Shown here one piece after another: positions 18,360 to 59,173 of a stretch of DNA of 64,000 bases (position 1 is its first letter; every line of letters begins with the position of its first letter). The notes under the pieces were generated by a model that searched no databases, was not told where the DNA came from, and was given only the letters and a program-made list of their open reading frames with translations. The position numbers and the translations under genes are program-made. Source of the DNA: Janthinobacterium sp. TB1-E2 (GTDB lineage: Bacteria; Pseudomonadota; Gammaproteobacteria; Burkholderiales; Burkholderiaceae_D); contig NZ_CP142523.1 in NCBI RefSeq assembly GCF_036885605.1, positions 5,952,001 through 6,016,000 of the forward strand. The letters are read 5' to 3'.

Positions 18360-18521
18360 CGTATCCTCCCATTGTGCGTTGCTCGTGCCGTGCATGGTGC
18401 AAGCGCCATGCCAGCGGCGCGCCCGGGCAGCGGCGGTACGCCTGGAAAGAAAAGCGACGCATTTGGGCGGGTTCGGACCAGCGCCGTCCCCCCAAGCCGG
18501 GAATTGGCCTGTCTTGCGGAC

Positions 18522-49332: not shown

Positions 49333-50481
49333 TCAGCTGGTCAGCACGACGATGTCGGCGCCATCCCACCACACCCACACGCGCTGTTCGCGCTCGAGGC
49401 GCGCGGCGTCGTGGCGGGCCGCGTTGGTGCGCGACACCTTCACCACAGTGCCGCTGTCGAGGCGCACGTGGTAGCTGGTTTCATTGCCAAAATACGCCAT
49501 GGCGACGATCACGCCCTGGGCGCAGTTGTAGCCGTGTTCATTTGGTGACGCACGCTCCTCCAAAGCGGGTGGCGCGATCTGGATGCCGATTTTTTCGGGG
49601 CGCACGGCCACCGAGACATCCATGCCCAGGTTGCCCGTGATGCCGTGCGAAACATAGTGCTCGCCATCGGGCGTGGCGATCACCACGTGATCGGCTTCGT
49701 CCTGCGTGATGCAGCCGTCGAACAGGTTGACGCTGCCGATGAAATCGGCCACGAAACGGCAATTCGGCGTCTCGTAGATTTCGCCAGGCGCGCCCACCTG
49801 CAGGATGCGCCCTTCGCTCATGACGGCGATGCGCGTGGCCATGCTCATGGCTTCGTCCTGGTCGTGCGTGACCATCACGCAGGTCACGCCCACCTGCTCG
49901 ATGATGTTCACCAGCTCCATCTGCGTGCGCTCGCGCAGTTTCTTGTCCAGTGCACCCAGCGGCTCGTCGAGCAGCAGTAATTGCGGCCGCTTGGCCAGGC
50001 TGCGCGCCAGCGCCACGCGCTGCTGCTGCCCGCCCGACAGCTGGTGCGGCTTGCGCTTCGCGTATTGGCCCAGTTGCACCAGCGCCAGCATCTGCTCGAC
50101 CCGCGCCGCCACTTCCGCTTTCGGCAAGCCGTCACGGCGCAGGCCGAAGGCGATGTTGTCCCACACGGATAAATGGGGGAACAGCGCGTACGACTGGAAC
50201 ATCATGTTGATGGGACGCTGGTGCGGCGGCACATCGACGATGCTGTTGCCCGCCAGGGCGATGCGCCCCGACGTCGGCGTCTCGAAACCGGCCAGCATGC
50301 GCAGCAGGGTCGACTTGCCGCAACCTGAACTGCCCAGCAGAGCGAAAATCTCGCCCTTGTTGATCGTCACGGAAATATCATTGACGGCGCGTACGCCATC
50401 GAATTCCTTGACCAGTTGATCAATCAGCAAGAAAGGCGCTGGGGCGTCGCTGGCCGACGCGGCTGGTGTTGCTATCGTCAT
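49333..50481 (-). CDS. potG: Putrescine ABC transporter ATP-binding protein
   Basis: A 382-residue ATPase. Walker A GSSGCGKST, signature LSGGQQQRVALARSL, Walker B LLLLDEPLGALD, the H-loop in VTHDQDEA and a C-terminal TOBE domain (VRPEKIGIQI, VAMAYFGNETSYHVRL). It energises the PotHI permease. No periplasmic PotF-type binding protein is encoded nearby, so one must be supplied from elsewhere or lie outside the window. Confidence 0.93.
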   Translation of the reverse strand: MTIATPAASASDAPAPFLLIDQLVKEFDGVRAVNDISVTINKGEIFALLGSSGCGKSTLLRMLAGFETPTSGRIALAGNSIVDVPPHQRPINMMFQSYALFPHLSVWDNIAFGLRRDGLPKAEVAARVEQMLALVQLGQYAKRKPHQLSGGQQQRVALARSLAKRPQLLLLDEPLGALDKKLRERTQMELVNIIEQVGVTCVMVTHDQDEAMSMATRIAVMSEGRILQVGAPGEIYETPNCRFVADFIGSVNLFDGCITQDEADHVVIATPDGEHYVSHGITGNLGMDVSVAVRPEKIGIQIAPPALEERASPNEHGYNCAQGVIVAMAYFGNETSYHVRLDSGTVVKVSRTNAARHDAARLEREQRVWVWWDGADIVVLTS

Positions 50482-55781: not shown

Positions 55782-56606
55782 CTACTTTTTTTCCAGCCGC
55801 TGCCGCAGTTCCTCGGCCACCGGATAGTCGGGATAGGCCTGCCGGAACGCCGTCCACTCCTCGCGCGCCAGTGCGTCCTCGCCGGCCTTGAGCAGGGCGT
55901 CGATCTTCACCAGCCACACGCCAGCGTCGAGTTTTGCGGCCGGCGGCAACGGCGCGGAGCGAGCCGCGACGGGCGCGGGCATGGCCAGCGCGCGCTGCAC
56001 GGGTGCCTGGCGCTGCAGGCTGGACTCGGCCTGCATGGCCGCTTGCTGCTCCATCGCCTCGCTCATCGCCGTGGCAGGCGCCGGTGGCGGCGGCGGTGCT
56101 GGCGGCGCCGGTGGGGCAACTGCTACCGCCTGCGGCGTGGGAAACGAGGCTGGCGCCGGCGGCGCTGGCTTGGCTGCCATTTTGGCCATGGCGCGCGGCG
56201 CTGGCGCAGCTGCGGTCGATTCGGCAGCCTGCGGCACTGGCGCCGCTGCCGGCACCACCTCCTGCGTGACCGGTTCCCCCACCACAGGAAATTGCGCTGG
56301 CTTCGAGCCGAACCAGTCCACGCCGATCAGGTTCACGGTCAGCAGCACGGCTGCGGCCAATCCCAGCGGAACGCGCCAGCGCTGCAGGTAATCCGGCGAT
56401 TTCTTGGCCGGCAAGGTGCGCAGCACGCCATCGGCGCTGTCGTTCGCGGCTGCCGGCTGCTGCAAGGCTTTTTCCGCATCCGCCAGAATGGCCGCATCGA
56501 GCGCGCTGGAAGGCGCGGGCTGCGGCAGGCTGGCCAGCAGCGCGTTCAACTCCTCGTCAATCGGTGCGTCGTTCGGTTTGTCGTTATTTTGATCGTGCGT
56601 ATTCAT
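55782..56606 (-). CDS. Anti-sigma-like single-TM protein with Pro/Ala-rich linker
   Basis: A 274-residue protein. The cytosolic N terminus (acidic, DEELNALLASLPQPAPSSALDAAILADAEKAL) could hold a sigma factor. One transmembrane helix lies at about 79-96. A long Pro/Ala-rich stretch (about 105-215) reaches the periplasm. A C-terminal helical hairpin (LDAGVWLVKIDALLKAGEDALAREEWTAFRQAYPDYPVAEEL) resembles a TPR-like unit. Its ATG overlaps the sigma factor's TGA (ATGA). The anti-sigma role is inferred from position and topology; no named anti-sigma domain is recognised. Confidence 0.75.
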   Translation of the reverse strand: MNTHDQNNDKPNDAPIDEELNALLASLPQPAPSSALDAAILADAEKALQQPAAANDSADGVLRTLPAKKSPDYLQRWRVPLGLAAAVLLTVNLIGVDWFGSKPAQFPVVGEPVTQEVVPAAAPVPQAAESTAAAPAPRAMAKMAAKPAPPAPASFPTPQAVAVAPPAPPAPPPPPAPATAMSEAMEQQAAMQAESSLQRQAPVQRALAMPAPVAARSAPLPPAAKLDAGVWLVKIDALLKAGEDALAREEWTAFRQAYPDYPVAEELRQRLEKK

Positions 56607-57169
56607 GCCTGTCCTCCCGCGCCAGCGGCGCTGTCCAAGCCCGCGCGCAATTTCTGCATGGCGTAGCGCAGCCGGCTCTTGACGGTTTCCGCTTCCGCCC
56701 CCGTCACGACGGCGATCTCGAGAATGCTCATGCCGCTGAACTGCTGCAGCACCAGCGCTTCCTTCTGCTCGGCCGGCAACGCGGCGATGGCCGCATGCAG
56801 CAACGCATGCTGCTGTTTCTGCTCCAGCGATTGCGGCGGCGATGCGTCCTCGTCCGCCAGTTCGCCCGCAGCGTCGATTTCCTGTCCTTCCCGCTGGCGC
56901 AGCAGGTCGATCAGGCGGTTGCGCGCGATCTGGTACAGATAGGTGCGGAACGCCGCCTGCGGCTGGTAGCCGGCGCGCGCCGCATGCAGGCTGGCCCACG
57001 CATCCTGCACGATCTCGTCCACCCACGCGCGGCGCGGCGAACGCCAGGCCACGAAGCGGTACAGGCCCTGGCTGTGGCGCCGGTACAGTTCGCGAAACGA
57101 CGGCAGGTCGCCGGCGCCGTAGCGCAGCATCAGGTCTTCATCCGTCGCGGTCATCAGGGTGTCGGGCAT
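56603..57169 (-). CDS. ECF-like RNA polymerase sigma factor
   Basis: A 188-residue sigma factor. Region 2 (SFRELYRRHSQGLYRFV, DEIVQDAWASL, FRTYLYQIARNRLIDLLRQ) and region 4 (LPAEQKEALVLQQFSGMSILEIAVVTGAEAETVKSRLRYAMQKLR) are present and regions 1 and 3 absent, as in ECF sigmas. The start at 57169 lies 50 nt downstream of the beta-propeller gene's stop; MTATDED five codons further in is an alternative. It is followed by a coupled anti-sigma-like gene, so it is presumably held inactive until an envelope cue. Confidence 0.9.
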   Translation of the reverse strand: MPDTLMTATDEDLMLRYGAGDLPSFRELYRRHSQGLYRFVAWRSPRRAWVDEIVQDAWASLHAARAGYQPQAAFRTYLYQIARNRLIDLLRQREGQEIDAAGELADEDASPPQSLEQKQQHALLHAAIAALPAEQKEALVLQQFSGMSILEIAVVTGAEAETVKSRLRYAMQKLRAGLDSAAGAGGQA

Positions 57170-57218
57170 GCGGACCAGTGTAGCCGAACTACGCGGCAGC
57201 GGCAATTTCACTACGCCG

Positions 57219-59105
57219 TCAACGTGCAGTGGGTGCATAGCTGATGCGGCGCACTTCGCGTATCTGTCCATCACTGAGCGCCCCTTCCACCAGTTCATAG
57301 CCGAGCAAAGCGAAGACCCGGCCCTGCAGGAACAGGGGCCGCGCATTGCCATACCAGTCCACGCAGGACGCGCGGCAGCCGTCGTCCGGCGCCTGGCCCG
57401 GCCGCGCGGCCAGCGCACCCAGTTCCGTCAAAGTCAAACCGCTGTTGCGCAAGTAGAGTACGGAGGCGGCTGGCTTGTTGAGCCCGGGCCGCTCATCCAC
57501 GCCCAGGATGGGCAAGCCGATCACGCCCTCACCGGCCGCTTGCGGCTTGTAGAAAAAGCCGTGGCTGCGCGACTCGCCCTGCGCCGCGTCGGCGCGGATG
57601 TAGCGCGTGGCAATCGCCGCCTGCGCCCCCAGGCCGATGGTGCTGAAGTGCAGATCCCTGCCCTGCGCGCCGATCACCACGGCGTCATTGCCCAGCGCCT
57701 CGATGCGCTCCACGCCGTGCGGCAGGGACAAGGCTTGCACATTGCCCGCATCGGCCCAGCGCACGGCGTACAGGGGCTGGCGCGGCCAGGCCTGGTCCGC
57801 CTTGCGGCGTCCCGGATTGCCCGGATTGCCGTACAACAGATAGGACCCCACATAGCGGTTCTGCAAGCCGTAGCCGCCGCCACCGGGCAGCGCCTTGTAG
57901 CTGCTGGCGGGCGCGCTGTCGCGGCCATCGGAAAACGACGCCAAGGGTACGCGCAGCAAGGCCATGTCGCCCCGCCCTCTTGCACCATCCCACATGGCGT
58001 CGCCCTGGCCCTCGGCACGCAGCAGCACGTTCAGGTGGCCGTCAGCGCTTTCCAGGAACGAGAGCTGGTCGACGGGCGCGCCGGCCACCTTCAGGGCGCT
58101 GGGCGCGCTGCCGTCGAGGGGAATGCGGAACACGCCCGAGTCACTGCCGCGCCGCGTCGTCCACACGAAAACGGATTCGCCCGACACATAAAATACGCGG
58201 CCCTGCGGCCCCATCACGGCCGTCGCTTCGCAGCGCATGTCGCGCTGCGCCAGGTCGCACACGGTGACCGTATGCAGGGTCAGGCCGAAGCCCGTTTCAG
58301 GTTCTTCATCGGTACGGTAGATGCGCGTGGCCGGGGCGATGCGCTTGAAGTCGGACGGCACGGCGTCAGGACGCCAGCGGCGCAGCGCGGGGAAGCCGCC
58401 GAACGGGTCGCCCCGGCGCAAGTTCAGCGACAGGGGCGAATAGAACACCAGTTTGCCGCCGACCAGGCGGCTCGCGTAATTGCGCGACGAGTAATAATCG
58501 TTGGAGCGCAAGTGATAGGTGGAACGGTAGGCCAGCTTGCCGTCCCCATTGACGTCGAACAGGCCGATCTCCGTGCCGCCACGGCTGTAGCTGTAGCCGA
58601 TCACCACGACCGTGTCGCCATCGATCAGCATTTCGTCATACCAGCTGCCGGAAGGATCGCTGCCCGGCGCGAACGCGTCGAGCGAGGACACGGGCTGCAG
58701 GGCATTGCCCCCCACCGCCACCGTAAACAGCTTGCCGCGCCGGAGCATCACCAGGTGCTTGCCATGCAGCTTGACGATGCCGCCTTCGTCCACGCCCGCC
58801 GTCTGCACATTGGTGACGGATTCCGCCGCTTCTGCCGATGGCGCGGGGGCAGCCTTGGCCGCCATCGGCGCGGGAGGGGCGGGAGGAGCGGGTGGAGCCG
58901 ACATGGACTGCGCCGTGGCGCGCTGCAGTTTCTGCTGCTCCCGCAGCAAGGCCGCCTGGCGCGCCTGCAGCTGCTGCAGGTAGCTGCTCAAGGCCTGCTC
59001 GCTGGCGAACGGCGCCAGGGTCTTGCGCGGCGCCGTGCCGGCGGCGTGGCTGCCTGCCGACAGCAGCAGGGACAGTGTCAATGTGATCTTGAGGGCGCTG
59101 GACAT
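57219..59105 (-). CDS. Secreted beta-propeller domain protein
   Basis: A 628-residue protein with a Sec signal peptide (LLLSAGSHAAG), a Gln/Arg-rich coiled segment (SYLQQLQARQAALLREQQKLQRAT), an APPAPPAPPAP linker and then a beta-propeller. The NVQTAGVDEGGIVKLHGKHLVML start is the hallmark of the C-terminal-propeller family PF09826. Two Cys near the C terminus (DDGCRASCVDW) may form a disulfide. The role of the family is unknown. GGAGAAG precedes the ATG. It is the first gene of the propeller-sigma-anti-sigma set and may be its sensor or target. Confidence 0.87.
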   Translation of the reverse strand: MSSALKITLTLSLLLSAGSHAAGTAPRKTLAPFASEQALSSYLQQLQARQAALLREQQKLQRATAQSMSAPPAPPAPPAPMAAKAAPAPSAEAAESVTNVQTAGVDEGGIVKLHGKHLVMLRRGKLFTVAVGGNALQPVSSLDAFAPGSDPSGSWYDEMLIDGDTVVVIGYSYSRGGTEIGLFDVNGDGKLAYRSTYHLRSNDYYSSRNYASRLVGGKLVFYSPLSLNLRRGDPFGGFPALRRWRPDAVPSDFKRIAPATRIYRTDEEPETGFGLTLHTVTVCDLAQRDMRCEATAVMGPQGRVFYVSGESVFVWTTRRGSDSGVFRIPLDGSAPSALKVAGAPVDQLSFLESADGHLNVLLRAEGQGDAMWDGARGRGDMALLRVPLASFSDGRDSAPASSYKALPGGGGYGLQNRYVGSYLLYGNPGNPGRRKADQAWPRQPLYAVRWADAGNVQALSLPHGVERIEALGNDAVVIGAQGRDLHFSTIGLGAQAAIATRYIRADAAQGESRSHGFFYKPQAAGEGVIGLPILGVDERPGLNKPAASVLYLRNSGLTLTELGALAARPGQAPDDGCRASCVDWYGNARPLFLQGRVFALLGYELVEGALSDGQIREVRRISYAPTAR

Positions 59106-59173
59106 CGCTTCTTCTCCGGTTGGCTGGGGTGTCCAACATGAAACGCGGCAGCGCAGAAAAAGGGGTTAAATAC

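Follow-up and report, generated by a model that had tools for sequence, protein, structure and literature searches.

Three genes packed on one strand, for a secreted beta-propeller, an ECF sigma factor and a protein with a single transmembrane (TM) segment, raise the question of whether they form a conserved envelope signalling unit and, if so, whether the propeller acts as its sensor, as a co-anti-sigma factor or as its output. We analyzed this locus within a 64,000-nt stretch of Janthinobacterium sp. TB1-E2 DNA (hereafter the window) and compared it with related loci in other genomes. On the evidence presented below, we consider it likely that the locus encodes an autoregulated cell-envelope ECF switch with the propeller as its regulon output, whose gene in Janthinobacterium forms part of the operon itself.

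The features of the locus are listed in Table 1. The layout proposed by the initial annotation proved accurate in its coordinates, its strand and the ATGA overlap (56603–56606) of the sigma stop with the start of the TM-protein gene. The close packing of the propeller and sigma genes was likewise found, although the distance from the propeller stop (57219) to the sigma ATG (57169) is 49 nt and not 50 nt as originally given. No Rfam family was detected between positions 50000 and 64000 of the window.

Table 1. Features of the propeller/sigma/TM-protein locus (positions in the window)
Feature	Position	Strand	Description
ECF-type promoter TTAACCC-N17-CGTTT	59141-59169	minus	35 bp between CGTTT and the propeller ATG
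PF09826 beta-propeller gene	57219-59105	minus	628 aa, first gene of the unit
Signal-peptide-like N-terminus of the propeller	59040-59105	minus	~22 residues; hydrophobic, then SHAAG; judged by eye
ECF sigma factor gene	56603-57169	minus	188 aa
One-TM protein gene	55782-56606	minus	274 aa; probable anti-sigma factor
Cytoplasmic conserved helical segment, residues 18-49	56460-56555	minus	LPQPxPSxxLDAAILAxAExAL; from the alignment
Transmembrane segment, residues 79-98	56313-56372	minus	Hydropathy maximum; helix in the structure model
Periplasmic C-terminal helical hairpin, residues 228-272	55791-55925	minus	Best-conserved part in the alignment

A contig scan for propeller relatives confirmed 379 stretches, and the best 80 of these 379 were examined. 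Among these 80, the sigma and TM-protein genes lie directly downstream of the propeller in all Janthinobacterium loci (17/17), and the same three-gene order recurs in one metagenome-assembled genome (MAG) of a sister genus (L031, seen too as L006 and L169). The comparison set includes draft genomes and MAGs, and gene starts were called mechanically. The gene order itself is read directly from these loci and, judged by sequence comparison, is more than a chance arrangement, being kept in the genus and in the sister-genus MAG. This survey of PF09826 neighbourhoods therefore takes the unit beyond a single genome, and the idea of a conserved envelope-type ECF unit is borne out by the comparison of loci. 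The sigma was detected in 31 of the 40 Janthinobacterium genus members; the other nine showed no orthologue (G687, G691, G704, G705, G709, G710, G711, G714 and G720).

The propeller is a member of the PF09826 family, which it matches with 55.4 bits (Pfam gathering cut-off, 22.4), and its AlphaFold2 model is all-beta and propeller-like (pTM 0.82), so that by prediction it has a propeller fold. Besides this likeness in family score and predicted fold, it differs from the family in that the match is restricted to the first half of the model (positions 2–272 of 495) and in that it belongs to a distinct subfamily, whose members, among the relatives listed, are at least 53% identical from Betaproteobacteria to Acidobacteriota. 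Its start is signal-peptide-like, and its four cysteines are retained without exception across 40 homologues. Foldseek retrieved generic multi-propeller proteins only, with a TM-score of about 0.2, and thus pointed to no specific structural relative, and a sequence search of solved structures returned nothing useful for either the propeller or the TM protein. PF09826 propellers had been described as lacking a settled role; in agreement with this, our literature search found no functional work on PF09826 or COG4880, the former being named only in protein-family pipeline work.

The second gene product is an ECF sigma factor, comprising Sigma70 regions 2 and 4 (Sigma70_r2, PF04542, E 2e-13; Sigma70_r4_2, PF08281, E 4e-12; both over cut-off) without region 3, and matching TIGR02937 with 101.5 bits (cut-off 42.9). 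Its best NCBIfam model is NF009166 (PRK12513), with a score of 187.7 bits that is far higher than those of unrelated ECF sigmas (at most 130) but below the curated cut-off of 206; we therefore regard it as a neighbour of this equivalog and have not filed it as a member. The propeller-linked sigmas group together in the sigma tree as a single supported clade, whose neighbour is a sigma linked to a VIT protein (G028). An ECF group number for this sigma was not found in the literature.

The third gene product contains a single hydrophobic segment (about residues 78–98), a cytoplasmic segment for which two helices are predicted with moderate confidence, and a C-terminal hairpin modelled with a pLDDT of about 94 over most of its length; its alignment comprised 20 relatives. 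A resemblance of the hairpin to TPR obtained with Foldseek was not significant and was set aside. As the initial annotation had it, this protein carries no recognised anti-sigma domain: Pfam and NCBIfam scans returned no family over cut-off, none of the three scanned relatives contained a recognisable anti-sigma domain either, and there was no match to a class I anti-sigma (ASDI) or zinc-binding anti-sigma domain that would place it in that class. Linkage to ASDI proteins is reported for only about one-third of ECFs (PMC7406223). Gene order, overlap, the single TM segment and co-conservation with the sigma make the protein a probable anti-sigma factor. Adjoining sigma/TM pairs of such kind are usually sigma/anti-sigma pairs. 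It might instead be another membrane protein that is merely co-expressed with a sigma controlled otherwise, a reading with which the failure to recognise an anti-sigma domain in it or its relatives and a cytoplasmic part as short as about 78 residues would agree. We consider this improbable, given that the sigma/TM order, usually with overlap, stays constant while the partner gene changes (see below) and that the cytoplasmic helical segment and the TM segment are conserved.

Alignment of the sequences upstream of the propeller gene revealed one conserved block, TTAACCC-N16/17-CGTTT, which is arranged like the -35/-10 pair of an ECF promoter and is kept in the 17 Janthinobacterium loci and in the sister-genus MAG despite differing or replaced flanks; the genus member G048 carries the variant TTGACCCC...CGTTT. 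An exact block is located 1952–2090 bp ahead of the sigma match in 29 of the 31 sigma-bearing genus genomes, and a site so placed is found in none of the nine sigma-less ones. The shared block and its co-occurrence with the sigma are thus direct results of the comparison, and we infer that the sigma recognises this block. Total motif counts per genome were near background, with similar totals given by a reversed-pattern control and by sigma-less genomes; such counts were therefore dropped, and the evidence lies in the position of the sites and not in their number. A regulon beyond the operon in the Janthinobacterium genome itself was not counted either, as the other near-exact sites there fall inside ORFs or ~200 bp before a substrate-binding-like protein.

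Among the best 80 of 379 propeller stretches, 62 lie outside the unit. These show 53–60% identity and derive from Betaproteobacteria, Xanthomonadales, Myxococcota and Acidobacteriota; a related sigma adjoins none of them (0/62), and a distant sigma relative is found kilobases away in three (3/62). Such a distribution, together with neighbourhoods that share nothing among the loci listed, is what would be expected if the propeller were a passenger, inserted by chance next to the sigma and functionally unconnected with it. We regard this as very unlikely, as the unlinked propellers of sigma-bearing genomes carry the same promoter, and as the unit and its conserved promoter have been kept across the genus and its sister genus. 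The promoter comparison covered 50 propeller loci outside the unit, a genome being taken as sigma-bearing if it holds a sigma with at least 150 bits to NF009166; this line is a choice, with the best acidobacterial sigma scoring 149.9 and one counted sigma, cut by a contig end, scoring 151.8. By this definition 33 loci belong to sigma-bearing and 17 to sigma-less genomes, and AACCC-N16-18-CGTT is found close to the start of the propeller gene in 21 of the former versus one of the latter (Fisher p 8e-5, phylogeny ignored). The chance expectation after dinucleotide shuffling is 0.34 of all 50 loci, and one of 578 other sequence windows of the same loci contained the motif.

A recognisable site is missing at 12 of the 33 propellers in sigma-bearing genomes, many of them from Accumulibacter, most of whose propellers are affected, and these may have a diverged promoter or be under another regulator. 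At six Accumulibacter loci (L043, L056, L069, L070, L073 and L083), propeller and sigma are present in the genome and no block was found at the propeller. Loci from Acidobacteriota (e.g. L044, L049 and L053) carry the propeller but have neither the block nor a high-scoring NF009166-type sigma, so that its regulation there must be of another kind.

Sigmas near NF009166 are spread across Beta- and Gammaproteobacteria. The next gene, which usually overlaps that of the sigma, encodes a one-TM protein with a common layout: a conserved helix within a short cytoplasmic part, the TM segment, a variable linker rich in Pro and Ala, and a C-terminal hairpin with the pattern W..I..L...G....A...F...YPDYP. 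The gene preceding the sigma varies, encoding a YfbK-type vWA lipoprotein, a secreted protein with a GTGHGR...FVPDP ending or the PF09826 propeller, and a VIT/DUF2135 protein is transcribed divergently from the sigma unit in G028 (same family) or lies downstream of it in G540. The partner swap can be read off these loci directly. By sequence, then, the sigma/TM pair is not new but a member of an ECF group near NF009166/PRK12513 that is widespread in Beta- and Gammaproteobacteria. Of the suggestion that the locus is an undescribed signalling system, the conserved unit stands, whereas a sigma/TM pair peculiar to propellers does not, the group being widespread and its partner variable. The Janthinobacterium unit shares with this group the sigma score, the adjoining one-TM protein and the promoter block; it differs in having a PF09826 propeller where the others have vWA, VIT or GTGHGR proteins, and in a sigma that scores below the cut-off.

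Of 20 relatives, 17 carried the block, in most cases at the operon. A looser form, AACY-N16-20-CGT, precedes the vWA partners in 12/12 cases and the GTGHGR partners in 9/12, with 0.1–0.2 expected per locus. Extra exact copies lie before a VIT protein (G540), a DUF4139 protein (G458) and a GTGHGR-like protein (G171), and before a protein in G114 whose end, by eye, resembles DUF4139. The ending GTGHGR...FERAS...YYDS..NLVA.GVI...PFPG.FVPDP marks a recurrent secreted partner in Burkholderiales (L134-L154, L225 and L236-L238), encoded by the first gene before the sigma; the one such protein scanned had no Pfam or NCBIfam match. At L202 (G144:C58, site 18418-18446), the block stands before an RnfD/NqrB-like membrane protein followed by a secreted protein, both assigned by eye.

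These partner swaps bear on the role of the propeller. Were it a periplasmic sensor or co-anti-sigma factor, setting the activity of the sigma by binding to the TM protein at its C-terminal hairpin, the operon would be a whole sensory chain and expression from its own promoter would be feedback. Its place in one operon with the sigma and the TM protein would fit such a role, as would its secretion, which it has in common with the conserved C-terminal region of the TM protein; moreover, regulators are often autoregulated. However, relatives of the sigma/TM pair manage without a propeller and have unrelated partners instead, and the propeller gene mostly lies apart from the sigma but still carries the promoter, as a target would. 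Because related switches do without it and because it is mostly unlinked, a role as sensor or co-anti-sigma factor appears unlikely, although the propeller could, as an output, feed back on the switch. Among the three roles that had been put forward for the propeller, output is thus strengthened by a promoter common to different partners and to unlinked propellers, and the other two are weakened.

Taken together, these results suggest a model in which the propeller is a regulon output. The one-TM protein would hold the sigma at the membrane until an envelope signal, acting on the periplasmic part of the TM protein, frees it; the freed sigma would then transcribe its own operon from TTAACCC-N17-CGTTT at 59141-59169. 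The secreted propeller would be the first product and the effector of the switch, and the presence of the sigma and the TM protein on the same transcript would provide feedback. In most proteobacteria that have it, the propeller would be a target in trans, and its gene would occupy, in Janthinobacterium and a single sister genus, the operon slot that in relatives is taken by secreted proteins of the vWA, VIT or GTGHGR type. We would tentatively extend this to a scheme in which one promoter and one sigma/TM pair stay fixed and the secreted client (YfbK-vWA lipoprotein, VIT, DUF4139, GTGHGR protein or PF09826 propeller) is exchangeable, which we see as possible but somewhat doubtful. If the clients were functionally equivalent, together they would make up a single, so far unrecognised envelope function, with the propeller as one of its forms. 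Overall, a cross-phylum subfamily of secreted propellers gains from our analysis a probable regulator, promoter and role within an envelope response. Further secreted families about which little is known (YfbK-vWA, VIT/DUF2135, DUF4139 and GTGHGR) are linked to the same switch.

FecI/FecR-type cell-surface signalling combines an ECF sigma with a one-TM regulator that responds to an envelope signal, and the likeness to our unit lies in this combination of sigma and one-TM regulator. The unit was not assigned to this type, since Pfam gave no match to a FecR domain in the TM protein and no adjoining TonB-dependent receptor was recognised by eye among the adjacent ORFs. The nearest described system, by analogy, is SbrI/SbrR of P. 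aeruginosa (SbrI = PA2896). According to the part of the published account used here, this ECF sigma, which has an anti-sigma, is induced by envelope stress and activates the envelope-related muiA, and no propeller is reported in that part (PMC10418997). The DUF4139 protein found behind the promoter block in G458 is weakly MuiA-like (37.8 bits, below the family-model cut-off of 112.6). The likeness of the proposed Janthinobacterium switch to SbrI/SbrR, as far as the part used here describes the latter, lies in an ECF sigma with an anti-sigma factor and an envelope-related target, and is one of analogy.
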